This document shows, one piece after another, positions 4,301-12,097 of a stretch of 28,336 nucleotides of DNA. This DNA is from a virus, in the IMG/VR virus record IMGVR_UViG_3300022562_000919, positions 1 to 28,336 of that record; one strand, written 5' to 3'. The notes beneath the pieces were generated by a model. It was not told where the DNA came from. It worked only from the letters and a program-made list of their open reading frames with translations, and did no database searches. The stretch's first letter is position 1, and each line of letters begins with the position of its first letter. The position numbers and the translations under genes are program-made.

Positions 4301-6825
4301 CCCCTGCGGAAGTGGAGGCCATGCTGCGACGGTTGCAACTGGATGACAAGACGAAAGCCCTGTACTATGAGATCGACAAGTCCTTTACACATATCCTTAA
4401 TCGACTTGAGGCTGGTCTGAAATACTCGGCTGCTCGTGAGACGCTTGGCTCTGCGGAAGAAGCTACTAGGTTTATCGCAGCTTGGAATGCGGCGCCGGAC
4501 GCGAAGGCTCAGGTTGAACTTCTGGATAAGTATGACATAGTGGGGAAAGGTGCCAGACTTAATCAAAGGCTGACCGAGATTGATAAAGACTTCCAGCAAC
4601 TGCGGCACCGGAACTACTTTCCCCACATGCGCTTCGGTAGCTATGCTGTCACCATTAAGGCGGAGCAAGATGGCATAGAGTATGGTGGGAAGAAGTATAA
4701 GCGTAACGAGGTGATCATCTTTGAGACGTATGAAAGTACGACAGCTCAGCGTGCTGCCGCCGAGAAGTGGATGGTGGAGAAACCTGCTGGCTCGAGTGTC
4801 ACCGCAACTACGTTAAAGGATGAGGAGTTTGCCTTCCTTGGTATGCCACCAAGTCTGTTCGCAACCATCGAGGAGCAACTGACTCTTACTGAAGAGCAAC
4901 GGAATCGACTCAAGGAGATCTTTATTAGGAACTCTCCTGGGCGCGCTTTCCTTCGGCATCTTATCAAGAGGCGTGGCGTTGAGGGATTTAGTGCTGATGC
5001 CAGTAGGGTGTTCGCGACCTATGTGTTGAACGCAGCAAATCACATTGCTCGTGTTGAGCACTACCGAGACATGCAGGATAATCTCCTTGGGTTGGAAACC
5101 AGACAGAAAGGATTCGATCCTATCTTGACAGCCGAAGCGAGGAAGCTAGATCCAAATGCTCCCGCGGTGCCGGCGGAAGGGATTGATCAAAACAAGGTCG
5201 GGGTGCTGGCAAATTATTTCAATCGGCATTATAAATATATAATGAATCCCGGCAATGATCTGGCGAAGCTGCGAGCGATAGGGTTCATGTGGTACCTTGG
5301 GTTCAACGCTAAGTCGGCGGTAGTAAATCTGAGTCAGGTTCCCCTGGTTACGTATCCATATTTGGCTGCTAGATTCGGGGACTCCAAAGCGATTAGCGCA
5401 CTGACGAAAGCTATGCCAGCGGCTGCGAAGTTTGCACGCGGCTTGAACGCACAGCTGTCGCCAGAGGTAGACGCTGTTATCAAGAGACTATCTGACGAAG
5501 GTCTGCTTGATGAATCAATGGCTGTGAATCTGGCTGGCTTTACTGAATCTGATCCGCTAGAAAAGATGGTGCCTAAAACTAAATCTGGACGGCTGTTCGA
5601 TAGATTTAGTTTGGCGGGTGCCTGGATGTTCCGTAACGCAGAGAAGTATAATCGTTATGTGACTGCGATTGCTAGCGCGCGCCTGGCGGTGCAGGAAGGG
5701 GCGTCGGTTGAGGAAGCCTATCGGATTGCTCGGCAGACGGTGCAGAGCACCCAGTTTGAATATGCCAAGTGGAATAGACCAGAGTTTATGCGTGGTAAGA
5801 AGAGCGTGTTCTTCCTCTTCTGGCAGTACATGCAGCACGCAAGTTTCTTGGCGTTTGGTGGACACAACGCTGGCACCGCGGTTAGGTTCTGGACACTTCT
5901 ACTTCTCGCGGCAGGCTTCCAGGGATTACCCTTTGCTGAGAATCTACTTGATCTCTATGATTGGTCGTCAGCAAAGTTGAAGAGTCTCACTGGCTGGGGT
6001 GATCCACATACTGATTCCAGGAAGGAATTGCGTGAGTTGGTGGTGGCGCTCGGCGGTGACCCCAATCTTTGGATGCATGGTATGTCCAGCTACTTTGGGC
6101 TAGGACCGTTGCATTTGCTCGAAGCTGTGGGTGTGCCCATACCTCGAACAGACGTCAGTGGTTCCCTAAGTATGGGTCGGGTGATACCCGGTATCGAGTC
6201 TCTTACCGATCAGGCAGCTAAGCCCGAGGAGAAGTTTGGGCGCACCGTTATAGAAGCCATGGGTCCTGTTATGGGGATGCCGTATGTTTTGTGGAGAGCA
6301 CTCGCTGATGATAATCCCGACCTTTATAAGAGATGGGAGAGAGCGATGCCGACTGCGATTAAGGGAGCTATGCGTGGCACCAGGTGGATGACTCGCGGCG
6401 GTGAGGAGTTCCGTGGGGGTGGAGAGCTGATTGGATTTGATATGCAGGATATCGATCAGCGTCTCGAAGCTATTACTCAAATGTTTGGCTTCGCACCATC
6501 GAGACTTAATCGTGCGTATGAACTCTCCGCCGCGCAGGAAAGCACCAAGAGATATTACGGAACTAAGAGAACTCTCTTGATGGAAGACTACGCGTGGGCT
6601 AAGACGCACAATCGTATGGATATGCTTGCGGATGTGAAGCGGGAGATTAGGAAGTTTAATCACACCGCTCCACACCCGAAGCTACGCATTACTCCTAACG
6701 TCCTACGTCAGTCGCTTTCGGAGAGGGCACGTAGATCGAAGGATCGGACTGCGGGTCGGAGTTCGGAAAGGATGTTTCGCGGGCTTTACTCCGACCTTGA
6801 AAAAGTTTATCCCCAGCAGGAGTGA
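1321..6825 (+). CDS. Giant virion polyprotein with zincin-like motif and LPD38-like region
   Basis: 1834 residues. The start is supported by GGAG nine bases upstream. Residues 1-110 are unique. About 120-305 is Gly/Ala-rich and hydrophobic, with an ETLQEGLD segment typical of phage large polyvalent proteins. About 305-700 is a Pro/charged linker. H776-E777...H781 (LHEVIGHFGVR) is a metallopeptidase-like motif with HExxxH spacing rather than canonical HExxH. Residues about 1310-1500 (FNAKSAVVNLSQVP and following) resemble the LPD38 domain of phage polyproteins. The likely role is an ejected internal virion protein that crosses or modifies the cell envelope during infection (inference from family). 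The last 131 bases overlap, antisense, the end of the leftward ATPase gene. A near-perfect copy of the phage palindrome lies inside it at 3912-3934. Confidence 0.88.
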   Translation: MAYDVEEFFRKSQMSAVDAFFAGPPRTGPDFSALMQTPLVPPPEPPGITSSAWQRGWATTKADLAQSAALGLGAVGADDMETSMLKYADEQMKFAAELPKYAKDFDELETGGDYALFAWETLVENMPMLATLAVPGFTGAKIASKVFKAGTETAKAVGAATAAAADYGILTGETAGAVRETGEELEGNRGLIAGTGALKAALDFMPFALVAKNMGLLGKANSYFTEWLAHQGFITRAGVNMATIAASEIPTETLQEGLDIVAEKVVKDALDAGFSEQDVWRLKAAAAGASTFALLGIPAAVMKPQVKETRPDVEEEETPPEFALTPPPSEADEFVGPTFPPNGPVLPEGYVGAPEPLPIPGEALAGPTRGQMEFDFEGRGGVIKSGDFTIGDKVARRIQILKDGKQRNLTQAELDDAESLRIESTVPAERRTPAQQFMVQQKRLRDLRRMRDVAQGIEGTTGFTGPLTEKGLRSPIQVVKTRVDKKNITQAKRLKDARERLLSNPLSYRKDGELRVVIEKRLAKIDRELKNIEGLIEDDPAYLRFLDERDAEAGRPPEDIIDLVARTVIPEPNQLSGLPRQTQTPREILSGVRSPEQAAPQIPPTAAAEVDLAQPEDSVTPPTVEESSNLNPREQAILAKLQEREATDGLNEAGYAQLERLLAKQAGEQPAAREKSTDQKELENLAKEIGKDETVLRKKEGGGKGIGVSAVRAAIRRLQKIFGIEVEVVDSDTLAKMHLPTDSEGLTVTFADGTRRVFLNADRIPSVYEAKITYLHEVIGHFGVRSVLTQDQMRQIQEMLGMPDVVSTEEYIARLAENTNYAPKLWRKIVNFFKRVFRLADPELDIRDEALRNMLRDVAGKLRERVINKYSPDLMGPAVMESPVTILHKKLSLEGGEQHAGEVAQWNSLWEIKFGRYMYTPLQMLKRFGRLAPVEVKGYLDRVEQWWNTKMRIISEAEPLATRWNALSALQGKRLGEALLEINLQSERQERRLSPAEVEAMLRRLQLDDKTKALYYEIDKSFTHILNRLEAGLKYSAARETLGSAEEATRFIAAWNAAPDAKAQVELLDKYDIVGKGARLNQRLTEIDKDFQQLRHRNYFPHMRFGSYAVTIKAEQDGIEYGGKKYKRNEVIIFETYESTTAQRAAAEKWMVEKPAGSSVTATTLKDEEFAFLGMPPSLFATIEEQLTLTEEQRNRLKEIFIRNSPGRAFLRHLIKRRGVEGFSADASRVFATYVLNAANHIARVEHYRDMQDNLLGLETRQKGFDPILTAEARKLDPNAPAVPAEGIDQNKVGVLANYFNRHYKYIMNPGNDLAKLRAIGFMWYLGFNAKSAVVNLSQVPLVTYPYLAARFGDSKAISALTKAMPAAAKFARGLNAQLSPEVDAVIKRLSDEGLLDESMAVNLAGFTESDPLEKMVPKTKSGRLFDRFSLAGAWMFRNAEKYNRYVTAIASARLAVQEGASVEEAYRIARQTVQSTQFEYAKWNRPEFMRGKKSVFFLFWQYMQHASFLAFGGHNAGTAVRFWTLLLLAAGFQGLPFAENLLDLYDWSSAKLKSLTGWGDPHTDSRKELRELVVALGGDPNLWMHGMSSYFGLGPLHLLEAVGVPIPRTDVSGSLSMGRVIPGIESLTDQAAKPEEKFGRTVIEAMGPVMGMPYVLWRALADDNPDLYKRWERAMPTAIKGAMRGTRWMTRGGEEFRGGGELIGFDMQDIDQRLEAITQMFGFAPSRLNRAYELSAAQESTKRYYGTKRTLLMEDYAWAKTHNRMDMLADVKREIRKFNHTAPHPKLRITPNVLRQSLSERARRSKDRTAGRSSERMFRGLYSDLEKVYPQQE
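3912..3934. repeat. 23-bp palindrome, intragenic copy
   Basis: Arms GCGAGTAATT and AAATACTCGC around AAT. It differs from the perfect intergenic form at 20481-20503 by a single arm base. It lies inside the polyprotein gene, where it encodes residues about 864-872. No TATAAT box sits at the spacing seen at the leftward promoter copies. It may be a roadblock or auxiliary operator. Confidence 0.65.
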
Positions 6826-7987
6826 TGGAGATAAACATATCCTCCCCCTTCTGATATAGCTTTACGAAGCCCGCGCGAACTACACCGCCTAGTGCCAAGT
6901 CGAATTGCTCGGCTGACATTAGGTGGTATAGTTTGCGCCAGAGTTCTTGCTTTGATATAGAGTGTGTAGTACGCAAGGCACTTAATACTGCGGCGGTGTA
7001 CTTGGCTTCTCGTGAATCGGATATTCTCTGGAATACTAAAGGTAGATTTTCTTCTAATGCGGACACTAATATATCTGCAGTGGTTAGATCATCGGCGGTG
7101 ATTATCCTTTCGTTACGCTGAGACGCGGCGATTACAAGAGCCAGCTTGTGAACATGTGTCTGCTTTCTAGCGATGTAGCCGCCGAAGCGGTCGCCTGCTA
7201 GATGTTCATGGCGAGCTTGCCAGTGCTTTTCATACCACGATTCGCCTAGTTCTTTCGCATCTTTTGTTAGTGTGTATTCTCCAGTTATCTGCGCTATATT
7301 GTTGAGGTCCGCGACAAGAGCTTTTCTCAGCGGTGCGAATTCTTCAGTCATGCGCTCTTTGGGATAGGCTTCTAGATGTCTCTTGGCTTCAGCATACACG
7401 AAGATTGTGCGTGATGTGAAGCCGCCGCCGATAGCGTATTCAGGAAAGTTTCCTTCGATCCAGGCCGGCGTGGTGCACCCGATGAAGTTGAGCCACGGGT
7501 TGGCGATTTCAGATTCGCCATCAGCTTTCGTATGCCGCTTCCACGGGATATCTCTGCCGTCCCATAGGTCGACTAGGACGTCAATCATTTCTCTATTATG
7601 TGGATCGAGGAAGGTTCCAAGTTCGCTTGCAGCGATTGTAATTGCAGACATCGAAATGTCGTCAAAGTATTCTGTTGATTCTGCAAAGGAAGAAGTAAGC
7701 GCTTGCCATGTTGCAGAGTCGGGACCAAAGTGAATGCCAGGAACTTCCCTGAGCATTGACATGCCGACTCCAACTGTCGTTGACTTTGATACCACCCCGG
7801 GTGGGGCGACGAAGACGATGAAGAAGTTAGGTTTCCATTTGAAATACCCCATGTCAATCCAGCACTTTCCTCTGAGTGCACCGGCGATGGTTGCCACTGC
7901 GGCCCACAAGTGGAAGGTGTCTGGTGCTTCGAGATGCTTTGTATATTCAACATATGCTTTCATCCAATGTTGGAGGATTCTTGCCAT
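6695..7987 (-). CDS. DUF3987-like replicative ATPase (primase-helicase type)
   Basis: 430 residues from ATG at 7987. An in-frame TTG at 8011 would add eight residues, but AAAGGA six bases before the ATG favours the shorter form. Residues about 55-75 contain a Walker-A-like loop (APPGVVSKST, K68). A SELGTFL segment follows at about 121-127, and the winged-helix-like end is at about 325-390. Proteins of this type sit in phage replication modules and are thought to act as helicase-like ATPases. The gene overlaps the polymerase C-part gene by 28 bases, so it is the last gene of the leftward replication operon. Its C-terminal tail (about residue 390 onward) is low-complexity, and the final 131 bases are antisense to the polyprotein gene. 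Family call is by motif and context. Confidence 0.8.
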   Translation of the reverse strand: MARILQHWMKAYVEYTKHLEAPDTFHLWAAVATIAGALRGKCWIDMGYFKWKPNFFIVFVAPPGVVSKSTTVGVGMSMLREVPGIHFGPDSATWQALTSSFAESTEYFDDISMSAITIAASELGTFLDPHNREMIDVLVDLWDGRDIPWKRHTKADGESEIANPWLNFIGCTTPAWIEGNFPEYAIGGGFTSRTIFVYAEAKRHLEAYPKERMTEEFAPLRKALVADLNNIAQITGEYTLTKDAKELGESWYEKHWQARHEHLAGDRFGGYIARKQTHVHKLALVIAASQRNERIITADDLTTADILVSALEENLPLVFQRISDSREAKYTAAVLSALRTTHSISKQELWRKLYHLMSAEQFDLALGGVVRAGFVKLYQKGEDMFISITPAGDKLFQGRSKARETSFPNSDPQSDPSIYVPSPKATDVGR

Positions 7988-8709
7988 GACACATCCTTTA
8001 CTTCGCCCCAAGATTTATTGGAGATTGAGAGGCCAACTCCGATGGTGAGAGGATCATCATATGGAATTTCGATTAGAAGATTATCTCTAATGACGGGGCG
8101 GATTTGAGGATCGAAGTGTTTTGGATATTGGAATACTAAAGAGTCGTGTACTTGTAAGAGGACTTCAACTTCAGGAAGATTGGTAACTAGATTCTTCCAG
8201 CCATGGTTTATGACGAGTGCGACGGTGGACTGGGGAATCCAAGCGAGCGCCTGCGGAAGCAGCATCTCAATGCGGTCGAAATAAAATCTTCTATATCCGA
8301 ATCTATTCTCCACGTATCGACGTGTTTCAAGCTGACGCTCAATTTCATTGTGCCAGTTTTTAATTCCAGGGTGCATTTGAAACCATTTAGACTGGAATTT
8401 GTCAGCTTCATGTACAGTGATACCAAGGGTCTTGGCGAGGGTTCGACCATTGCCACCGTAATTGGTGAGGTGGACACCAGCCTTAACTCTCTTTCGATGA
8501 GGATCGTCTGGTCCGGTGGGATATTTCCCAAATATGCTCTTACAGTTTTCGTTATGTAAGTCGAGAGACGGGTCTCTGAATATAGACTTAAGGTCACTGT
8601 CGTCAGCTTCCCAGGCGACGACTTGTGCGTCCGCTTGTTCAAGATCGGAGTCTCCTATGAGATAGCCGGGGTCTGGAGTAAACAGGGTGCGTAAGTTTGG
8701 GAGTTTCAT
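7960..8709 (-). CDS. Family-A DNA polymerase, C-terminal palm/fingers part (split gene)
   Basis: 249 residues carrying the catalytic core of a Pol I-type polymerase. Motif A is D22-LEQAD (catalytic Asp22; the usual steric-gate Glu is Asp27). Motif B is R72...K76...Y84-G, with His at the place of E. coli Phe762. Motif C is QVHDS with D189. It lacks everything before motif A, including the exonuclease and thumb, which are encoded by the gene just upstream. The ATG overlaps the upstream TGA (ATGA), with AAGGGGGAT as a ribosome site inside the end of that gene. The two products must associate to make an active enzyme (inference). An in-frame TAA stands immediately before the ATG, so this frame cannot be read from further upstream. 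Confidence 0.93.
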   Translation of the reverse strand: MKLPNLRTLFTPDPGYLIGDSDLEQADAQVVAWEADDSDLKSIFRDPSLDLHNENCKSIFGKYPTGPDDPHRKRVKAGVHLTNYGGNGRTLAKTLGITVHEADKFQSKWFQMHPGIKNWHNEIERQLETRRYVENRFGYRRFYFDRIEMLLPQALAWIPQSTVALVINHGWKNLVTNLPEVEVLLQVHDSLVFQYPKHFDPQIRPVIRDNLLIEIPYDDPLTIGVGLSISNKSWGEVKDVSWQESSNIG

Positions 8710-10337
8710 TTATCCCCCTTGGAAATATTCTGCAGGTTGGTGCCATAGCCGAAGGCATCTTCGGATGAAGCGAGGCGAAATGTTTCAGTTCCCGCTAGAT
8801 TGTAGGAACACCGCAGCCGTTGATCTCTGTCGAGATTCACCGAGGCGACCGAGTAGAAGGTGCCGCAGCGACGGAACTCTATGATGGCGTCGATGATTGG
8901 ATACAGTATAGGGTCGGCTTTCTTCCGAAGGGTGCCGAGCGCATCCTTGGCTAGCGTTGGTTGCTTCGTCTTCTTGTGGAGAATAGGGGGCACCCCGAGT
9001 TCGTTGTAGAAGAGTTGCTTCATCTGTGGAGATGAGCGAGGGTTGAAGTCACGATCCAAGACGTAATTCAAAAAGTTCTGTTGGTGGATCATTGCTTCTA
9101 GCAACTGCTTGCATATAGCTTCTCGTCGTGACATATCCACCCGGATACCCCTCAGCATGGATATAAGCACCGGGCGCACCATCGACATTTGATTCGCAAC
9201 CTGTGCTTCTAGTCCCATGGATTGCGCAGCGCCTTCTATTTCATATGAAGCTTCGTAGGTGCGAACGCAGTCGGTGCAGTTGTACGCCCAGAGGTTTTCC
9301 TCATCTACATAGCGGGGGTCCCATTGCTTGCCTTCGTCTTTCCAATAGACGTGATGGTTGCAGTAGAGGGAGGAGATAAAGTCTAGTCCTTTCGGTAGAC
9401 CGGGGAATAGCGTGTGGTGCGCTAGCATTGTATCGAGGTGTGGCCACGGGATGAAGCCCCAGTACCTAGCGATGTATTGCATATCGTAGATCCAGTTCTG
9501 TCCTACGACTTCTACGTTGGGATGTAGTAGAAGGCGCGCTAGCATATAGATTATGCTGGCTTCTTCTTCGTTATCCCAATACCCGAGGGGCTTATGGACA
9601 TCCATTAGTGGAATGCAGATTGCTTCCGTTGATGACCAGGCGAAACCGATGCAGGCGATATGCCGTTGACGAGTCTCGATGTCAACTGCCAGTCGGATTG
9701 TACCTTTAGTTGCTGCCGCTAACTGATCGGAGATTGTTGCAATAGTGTCATTGAACGAGGGGCGGATGATAAAAGAATAGCCCGGCTTGTTTTGTTGGTT
9801 AGCAAGAATCTTGTTGACGCGCCGGAGGTCTTGCACCATGATGAATCGCCATGACCACATACGGAGAATGGCAGCCGGGTGGTAGGTAACTAGAATGGGT
9901 ATTCTATCATGGTAGGTGAGTTGAGAGCCGCGCCACTTGGTGATTCCTGATTCACCAGTTAGTGCCCACAGTGCCGTATCGCCAAGAGCGATTATTATCT
10001 TTGGATTAACTGTCTCTATTTCTTCATAGAGTTCGAGCAATCCTTCGCGAATTGTATCATCGGGATAGCGTCCCATGATTTCTGTCACACCCGCCTTGCG
10101 TGCGGCGGTGCGTTTGAGAAACCATTTGGAGATATCATTCGACGGGGGACGATACTTACACACGTTGGTAATGTAGCAATCGTTTCGAGTGATCCCGGCC
10201 TCGTGTAGCATGGAGGTTAATTCTATGCCAGAGGTACCCACGAATGGGCGCCCCTGGAGTTCCTCAGTTGAGCCGGGTGCTTCGCCTACCACCATGATGG
10301 TGGCATCTGACGGGCCGTACGCTGGGATCTTTTTCAT
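8706..10337 (-). CDS. UDG-like domain fused to 3'-5' exonuclease and DNA polymerase A N-part
   Basis: 543 residues. Residues 1-180 match family-4 uracil-DNA glycosylase: GEAPG at 18-22, GRPFVG at 29-34, YRPPSN at 62-67, and HPAAIL at 153-158. All four cysteines that hold the 4Fe-4S cluster in family 4 appear absent (no N-terminal CxxC; the Cys of KCRPP is Tyr62; no later Cys). Residues about 213-365 are a DnaQ-like proofreading exonuclease with D219-x-E221, D285 and D356. Residues about 380-543 are the thumb and start of the palm, ending in NLQNISKGDK, just before motif A. The next gene supplies motifs A-C. The ribosome site is weak; the start lies seven bases after the dUTPase stop, so coupling is likely. 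Fusion of UDG and Pol A domains is known from some phages. Confidence 0.92.
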   Translation of the reverse strand: MKKIPAYGPSDATIMVVGEAPGSTEELQGRPFVGTSGIELTSMLHEAGITRNDCYITNVCKYRPPSNDISKWFLKRTAARKAGVTEIMGRYPDDTIREGLLELYEEIETVNPKIIIALGDTALWALTGESGITKWRGSQLTYHDRIPILVTYHPAAILRMWSWRFIMVQDLRRVNKILANQQNKPGYSFIIRPSFNDTIATISDQLAAATKGTIRLAVDIETRQRHIACIGFAWSSTEAICIPLMDVHKPLGYWDNEEEASIIYMLARLLLHPNVEVVGQNWIYDMQYIARYWGFIPWPHLDTMLAHHTLFPGLPKGLDFISSLYCNHHVYWKDEGKQWDPRYVDEENLWAYNCTDCVRTYEASYEIEGAAQSMGLEAQVANQMSMVRPVLISMLRGIRVDMSRREAICKQLLEAMIHQQNFLNYVLDRDFNPRSSPQMKQLFYNELGVPPILHKKTKQPTLAKDALGTLRKKADPILYPIIDAIIEFRRCGTFYSVASVNLDRDQRLRCSYNLAGTETFRLASSEDAFGYGTNLQNISKGDK

Positions 10338-10344
10338 TGGGATT

Positions 10345-10812
10345 TTATTCGCTCATAAATCCGGTAGAGCCGAAGCCACCCGCACCGCGAACTGTTGACG
10401 ACAGTCTATCGACTTCGATAAGGGTGAACTCGGGGGTGGGAACTATTACGAGTTGACCGATGCGATCGCCTCCCTTAATAATAAGGCTGCGCGTATTGTG
10501 GCTGATGAGGATAACCCCGACTTCCCCTCGATAGTCAGAGTCAATAACCCCTGGCGCATTTGCAACCGAGATTGAGTATCGTGCTGCAAGTCCGGAACGA
10601 GGGCATACAAGGCCGACATAACCTTCTGGTATTGCGATAGCAAACCCCAGTTTAATGAGGACAGATGGACTACTGGGCTTCCACCCGTCGAGACTTCCAG
10701 GAAGTGAAACAACAGTACCTCCCGGGATTGCAAGGTCATAGCCCGCAGAGCCTTCCGTAGCTCTCGTCGGTAGAACAGCGTCTTCAGTGAGTCTTTCAAT
10801 CTGAACATTCAT
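10345..10812 (-). CDS. dut: dUTP diphosphatase (trimeric dUTPase)
   Basis: 155 residues, the usual length. All five motifs are present: AGYDL (23-27), PRSGLA (71-76), GVIDSDYRGE (88-97, catalytic D91, Y94), RIGQLV (117-122) and the C-terminal RGAGGFGSTG (142-151). It hydrolyses dUTP to dUMP and pyrophosphate, keeping uracil out of phage DNA and feeding dTMP synthesis. GGAGG lies six bases before the ATG, and the gene overlaps the methyltransferase gene end by 17 bases. It stands directly before the UDG-polymerase gene, so two anti-uracil functions are adjacent. The active site looks complete. Confidence 0.97.
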   Translation of the reverse strand: MNVQIERLTEDAVLPTRATEGSAGYDLAIPGGTVVSLPGSLDGWKPSSPSVLIKLGFAIAIPEGYVGLVCPRSGLAARYSISVANAPGVIDSDYRGEVGVILISHNTRSLIIKGGDRIGQLVIVPTPEFTLIEVDRLSSTVRGAGGFGSTGFMSE

Positions 10813-12097
10813 TCAGTGCCTCCACAGCAAGATGGTAGTATTTCTCAGACTGTTCGATGCCAGTAGCAATGCACTTCAACTCGGTGGCCGCTGGAAAAAT
10901 GGGGCCTCCTCCAGCGAACGCGTCGAGTACGGTGTCTCCGGGATAGACGGATCGTCTAAGAAGATTAAGGTAAAGGTCGACGGGTTTGGCAGCAGGATGA
11001 ACGGATCTTCCTGGATTATTAACTCCAATAACGTCTGTATACATGGCAGTAACTGGTCGCCTTCCTTTATTGGCATAGAGGATAGCTTCGTATGTTCGAC
11101 GAGGTCCATAATCAGCGTTAGGAAATGAACCCGTGTTGCCTTTCGCCCAGATGATAGGCATTGGCCAACAACTCCAGCCAGCCAGTTCGAAAGCGACGAA
11201 CAGTTCTGTAAATCTTCGAATGTCGCAGAAAATGTATGAATGAGCCTGTGGCTTTGCGACTCTAAAAGCAAGGCTAGCAAAGTCTTCACAGACTCTTGTG
11301 AAGGCTGCGTCGCTGTCGTCGTAGTCATGTTTGTCACCGTCCCAGAAAGTTATCTTGTTGATGTCGACACCGTATGGTGGATCGGTGAGGATGACATCGA
11401 AGGATTCTTTGTAGGAATCATCTGATAGAATTTCGTAGCAGTCCCCGTGGAATAGCGTGTGCACCGAGGTGGCGGCGTCGAAGTCTTTGGCTAGCTGGAC
11501 GCGCTTAGCCCGCTTCTTTTCTTCCTTGATAAGTTTCAAGGCTTCCTTGGGGTTACGAGCGGCGGCTACGATTGGGTCGTCAAGAAACTCTTCGAGCTGT
11601 AGAGCTTGGGTGACCTGTTGGATTTCATGCTTCTTGGCGTCGCGGCCAGCGATCTCGGTGGCGGTATCTGTTGCAGACCACCCACTGAGGGTTGACTTCG
11701 AGTATTCGCCATGCTTATCTGTGCGAAGGCGGTGGAGGTCTGCGATAGCTTTCGCGTGCTCCTGCCATGTCAGGTCTTGACGAACAACATTTTCTTCAAG
11801 CTCGACCTCACGGAGTGATAGCTCGTCGAGTTCGTCTAAGATGGTGTATGGTATCTCGTCTTCATCTACCCTCGTTCCGTTGCAGGTGAAGGGAATGTTC
11901 TTGTCGTGGAGACTTACCATTGCTCGGTAGCGGCGCTCACCCGCGGCCAACGTGTGTCCGTCGGAGCGCAGTACGATTGGGTGAAGTAGTCCGTGGGTTG
12001 CGATGGAGTCGGCGAGTTCTTGCAGTTTCTTCTCGTCGAACTCCCTGCGTTGTCTATTATCAGGAATACGAATATCCTGGAAGTTGATTGAATACAT
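10796..12097 (-). CDS. ParB-like domain fused to DNA N-methyltransferase
   Basis: 433 residues. Residues 1-115 are a ParB/Spo0J N-terminal-like domain with the GERRYRA motif at 53-59. A helical linker follows to about 210. The C-terminal methyltransferase has TDPPYG at 238-243 (catalytic motif IV) and then DAFAGGG at 392-398 (SAM-binding motif I). That order is typical of beta-class N6-adenine or N4-cytosine enzymes. It probably methylates phage or host DNA at a site set by its own target domain; no partner restriction enzyme is in the window, so protection from host restriction is the likeliest role (inference). GAGG lies eight bases before the ATG, and a GC-rich hairpin stands 24 bases upstream. 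Confidence 0.93.
   Translation of the reverse strand: MYSINFQDIRIPDNRQRREFDEKKLQELADSIATHGLLHPIVLRSDGHTLAAGERRYRAMVSLHDKNIPFTCNGTRVDEDEIPYTILDELDELSLREVELEENVVRQDLTWQEHAKAIADLHRLRTDKHGEYSKSTLSGWSATDTATEIAGRDAKKHEIQQVTQALQLEEFLDDPIVAAARNPKEALKLIKEEKKRAKRVQLAKDFDAATSVHTLFHGDCYEILSDDSYKESFDVILTDPPYGVDINKITFWDGDKHDYDDSDAAFTRVCEDFASLAFRVAKPQAHSYIFCDIRRFTELFVAFELAGWSCWPMPIIWAKGNTGSFPNADYGPRRTYEAILYANKGRRPVTAMYTDVIGVNNPGRSVHPAAKPVDLYLNLLRRSVYPGDTVLDAFAGGGPIFPAATELKCIATGIEQSEKYYHLAVEALNECSD

Follow-up and report, generated by a model that had tools for sequence, protein, structure and literature searches.

Family-A DNA polymerases serve as standard markers and tools, and the usual view is of single-chain enzymes. 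The window, which is the whole stretch of DNA analysed here (a complete virus record of 28,336 bases), carries such a polymerase in two reading frames. Is this a genuine two-gene enzyme or a damaged copy of one gene, and how would two chains be made and work together?

The gene pair and its junction

Two adjacent genes on the same strand of the window together encode one complete polymerase, as in a split phage polymerase. The pair and its junction comprise the following features.

8706-10337, minus strand: N-half gene (543 aa), comprising a UDG-like domain, a 3'-5' exonuclease, the thumb and the beginning of the palm; last residues NLQNISKGDK
9849-10322, minus strand: UDG superfamily domain (residues 6-163; Pfam PF03167, 5e-30)
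9252-9725, minus strand: 3'-5' exonuclease domain, DNA_pol_A_exo1 (residues 205-362; Pfam PF01612, 3e-8)
8721-9077, minus strand: first part of DNA_pol_A, thumb/palm, up to the NLQNI motif (Pfam PF00476, profile 20-132 of 381, 4e-9)
8714-8720, minus strand: AAGGGGG, putative ribosome-binding site of the C half, within the N-half gene, 4 nt upstream of the ATG
8710-8712, minus strand: TAA in the C-half frame, abutting its ATG
8706-8709, minus strand: ATGA overlap of the N-half stop TGA and the C-half start ATG
7960-8709, minus strand: C-half gene (249 aa), with motif A (DLEQAD), fingers with O helix (RKRVKAGVHLTNYGG) and motif C (QVHDSL)

The N-half reading frame ends in ...GTNLQNISKGDK-TGA, and the C-half frame starts at an ATG, its protein beginning MKLPNLRTLFTPDPG (first residues MKLPNLRTLF). 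In Pfam, the C half matches positions 140-374 of the DNA_pol_A profile (3e-26) and picks up where the N half leaves off (132 / 140); the two halves are complementary and no conserved part is absent. A preliminary description of this DNA had proposed a family-A polymerase split between an NLQN-type motif and motif A, with nothing lost at the junction. The reading frames and Pfam domains bear out the first point and the complementary profile pieces (20-132 and 140-374) the second. The ATGA overlap, the ribosome site for the second ATG and the in-frame TAA that it had described are all present in the window sequence.

Split and fused relatives

A query with the single sequence gave no matches among viral contigs, and alignment-based searches were needed. 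Two profile searches of viral contigs yielded 160 loci, which became 133 distinct loci, window included, when near-copies were merged. About 81 of these were fused, three were fused with a long in-frame insert and 49 were not fused; because the loci are the best-scoring matches, the ratio of split to fused is not a population frequency. The cut lay at the linker of the window in 48 of the 49 unfused loci. L070 was rejected as a split at this linker, being broken elsewhere, and L024, L040, L074, L082 and L138 were rejected as splits on re-check, being fused. L132, L140-L143 and L153 were also rejected; they are fused and carry stop-free in-frame inserts of ~1.1-1.2 kb at motif B (N before TNY/SNYGG), which are probably inteins.

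The preliminary description had proposed a search of related phages for the same split, and we found it in 47 other distinct loci. Because all of these are cut at the same linker, the split is more than chance. In the split loci that we read, the N and C halves shared a strand and kept one order, with a spacing that ranged from an 11-nt overlap to a gap of 2.9 kb. In most split loci the N half stops 5-12 residues past NLQN, without an added domain, and the C half begins within a few residues before LPN. A putative ribosome-binding match of at least 4 nt at 3-12 nt was present in 36/48 split loci, compared with 18% at random positions, the former figure being an upper estimate because the choice of start favours matches.

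The nearest relative found (L006, of L006/L086) has the same cut, with ~1.1 kb between the halves that holds a methyltransferase ORF and others; its identity to the window is 63% and 73% in the two halves. The ORFs between the halves encode a methyltransferase in L006 and L016, an RNase T exonuclease in L025, a Lon-type protease in L048, a ribonucleotide reductase in L063, a dUTPase in L064 and L076, an HNH nuclease in L039 and a deoxyribosyltransferase-like protein in L037. This cargo is varied, unrelated and intact, and some loci have nothing between the halves.

Of the closest GenBank phages, isolate ctMlz233 (MW202489) and Microcystis phage Mel-JY34 have fused polymerases and Vibrio phage ABTNL-3 a split one. 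ABTNL-3 belongs to the lineage of the window and has the same cut (NLQNLPKGDG / ...LPNIKKLF) but, unlike the window, has a 184-aa ORF with no assigned function between the halves. We found no discussion of the ABTNL-3 split in the open literature. In L004 (Caulobacter phage Kuura), a related enzyme has a different break: the polymerase is joined and the N-terminal domains are separate instead.

According to the preliminary description, a single missing A in an AAA run would also explain the split. Such a sequencing or assembly error, in which a base lost in an A or G run splits an intact gene, would agree with the joined ORFs missing nothing and with about 81 relatives being fused. However, the explanation fails its own test, since not every related genome is fused: the split surrounds whole, intact and unrelated genes in the nearest relative and in dozens more. 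The C half, moreover, comes with a start codon and ribosome site of its own. L006 is cut at the same place and a methyltransferase ORF and others separate its halves, which a lost base cannot explain. An error is already refuted for the family, and we consider it very improbable for the window. We conclude that this is a real, recurrent and widespread two-gene family-A polymerase; its recurrence and wide distribution go beyond what the preliminary description had envisaged.

The break and the catalytic core

The residues D22 of motif A, K76 of the O helix and H188-D189 of motif C were invariant across 45 C halves. Between the window and L006, pN was 0.25 and pS 0.75 in the N half, and 0.20 and 0.84, respectively, in the C half; only the direction of these values is meaningful, because synonymous sites are saturated. 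Purifying selection acts on both halves, and the catalytic residues are intact. Two motifs of the C half (7960-8709; residues 22-27 and 72-84) are variants conserved in the lineage, with Asp at the position of Klenow Glu710 and His at that of Phe762 (HxTNY).

Modelled alone with AlphaFold2, the C half gave a mean pLDDT of 95.8, and the model aligned with residues 632-876 of Bst Pol I over 232 residues (Z 23.7, rmsd 2.1). The motif A Asp, the O-helix Lys, the motif C Asp and the predicted Pol I fold identify a family A DNA polymerase (PF00476). Among solved structures, the fused family matched the Klenow fragment best in sequence, and the aligned NLQNIPVRNEEGRRIRQAF of that fragment marks the place of the cut. 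In the AlphaFold model of a fused relative (L009; mean 94.2) the linker is a coil where pLDDT dips to 82-83, and the split site is a variable stretch in fused relatives. The break thus falls in a predicted flexible linker or variable loop just before the catalytic core. In Pol I, the part equivalent to the N half grips DNA and proofreads, and both catalytic aspartates are in the part equivalent to the C half. Given these roles and its place, the cut parts a DNA-gripping and proofreading half from a half with both catalytic aspartates. When N-half and C-half distances were compared, r was 0.50 for split and 0.69 for fused loci, a difference given no weight because the two sets differ in divergence.

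Proposed synthesis, assembly and origin of the two chains

We think it highly probable that the two subunits are synthesized by coupled translation and assemble non-covalently into a family-A replicative polymerase. In a tailed phage, one polycistronic message would carry both halves. Ribosomes completing the N half (UDG, proofreading exonuclease, and thumb with outer palm) would stop at the TGA inside ATGA and reinitiate at the C-half ATG, with help from the ribosome-binding site a few nucleotides upstream, and so produce the C half (motif A, fingers and motif C). The two chains, still unjoined, would then fold together as a normal Pol I. Both Asp residues that bind metal and the O helix that binds dNTP would come from the C half, and DNA grip and proofreading from the N half; the N half could be active alone as well. 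Reinitiation is suggested by the ATGA and the ribosome site. Coupled translation, assembly and activity are what we infer from the evidence as a whole, two-subunit assembly being very likely. Termination-reinitiation with two subunits, the reading preferred in the preliminary description, is the best fit, with assembly itself deduced.

In Aeromonas phages 25 and 44RR, a family-B polymerase is split as gp43A/43B, and the phage 25 subunits co-purify and are active (PMC2988022). As in the window, two adjacent genes encode a phage replicative polymerase, but of family B and in association with a seg endonuclease or an untranslated insert (PMC2988022). By analogy, phage 25 gp43A/43B is a direct functional precedent for the window pair. 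The archaeal split PolB (Methanobacteriales; Nanoarchaeum equitans) is likewise a two-polypeptide replicative polymerase, but of family B, and has been attributed to intein loss or is joined by a split intein (PMC4104785). The family-A 'DNA polymerase part I / part II' of LUZ24/PaP3, in separate genes (PMC3890496), was rejected as the same split, being cut between the exonuclease and polymerase domains and not within the palm. The OM43 phages MEP401/402 have a split family-A polymerase in which the authors suspected an intron (PMC10580990). In these phages and in Alcaligenes phage QDWS535 the cut also comes after the NLQN-type motif and before motif A, with a small ORF between the halves in MEP401/402 and a 1-nt overlap in QDWS535. 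Unlike the window, they represent a different polymerase lineage that lacks the UDG domain and is cut ~15-20 residues downstream, right before motif A. The region is therefore cut in at least two lineages. In the open-access literature we found split family-A palms reported only for the OM43 phages, as a possible intron, and earlier reports may exist; the phage polymerase surveys searched made no mention of such splits.

Could one continuous protein nevertheless be restored? A group I/II intron or a split intein would do so by RNA or protein splicing, in line with the intron proposed for the similar OM43 split (PMC10580990) and with the three distinct fused loci that have long in-frame inserts at motif B. 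However, the N halves finish 5-12 residues past NLQN with no extra domain, and the window has no room for an intron or intein because its ORFs overlap. No Rfam family matched at gathering score in any of 27 sources, the window among them, although Rfam models can miss divergent introns. Split-intein parts were absent from the termini: the N tail of the window has 6 residues, its C half runs from MKLPN, and other split loci are equally short. Splicing is therefore an extremely remote explanation. Equally little credence is due to a programmed -1 frameshift yielding some fused protein beside the two halves. The frames are offset by -1 and a G run lies just upstream, but the gaps in relatives reach 2.9 kb. 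As the preliminary description had said, the window junction has no X XXY YYZ slippery heptamer, and the TAA closes the second frame before the ATG.

A further possibility differs from non-covalent assembly of coupled subunits in origin only: the gene was divided by a homing endonuclease that has since disappeared and left a scar, while function was kept by assembly. T4-type phages offer a precedent (PMC2988022), and L039 is split with an HNH nuclease gene (4559-4999) between its halves that its close relative L042 does not have. Against this origin, the cargo is mostly not nuclease, and the comparison of L039 with L042 suggests that the nuclease arrived later, in a gene that was split before. 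We regard such an origin as unlikely.

On a tree of 122 rows, made by a quick method and with weak deep branches, 12 changes between split and fused were needed without L070 and 13 with it; strongly supported branches force nine in the latter version. Over evolutionary time the linker has repeatedly been cut or rejoined. The C halves of L012, L016, L019, L022, L025, L037, L038, L065 and L071, from several clades, all open with MVA[KQR]T. Because this start is shared, some splits may reflect one fission followed by re-fusions or C-half exchange, and not 12 fissions. A broader proposal, which we offer tentatively and think rather unlikely, is that the linker before motif A is at once a recurrent fission/fusion hot spot and a docking site for accessory-gene exchange inside an essential gene pair, and that the split allows a surplus of the UDG-exonuclease-thumb half to be made and to act alone in repair, whereby polymerase assembly would be regulated.

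A large phage lineage with a palm repeatedly cut at one loop provides natural split polymerases for study and engineering, and because the cut recurs, gene fission can be tested in replicate. In annotation and marker surveys, the assumption of one ORF will cause the halves to be missed or misnamed.

The neighbouring genes in the window encode a dUTPase, a Sak4-like protein, a DUF3987 primase-type protein and a ParB-methyltransferase fusion (10796-12097), in which a ParB N-terminal domain is joined to an N6/N4 DNA methyltransferase. The UDG-superfamily domain stands at the polymerase N terminus throughout the lineage (9849-10322 in the window, and relatives), with a phage dUTPase nearby. The UDG fusion and the adjacent dUTPase suggest that replication may be linked to the handling of uracil.
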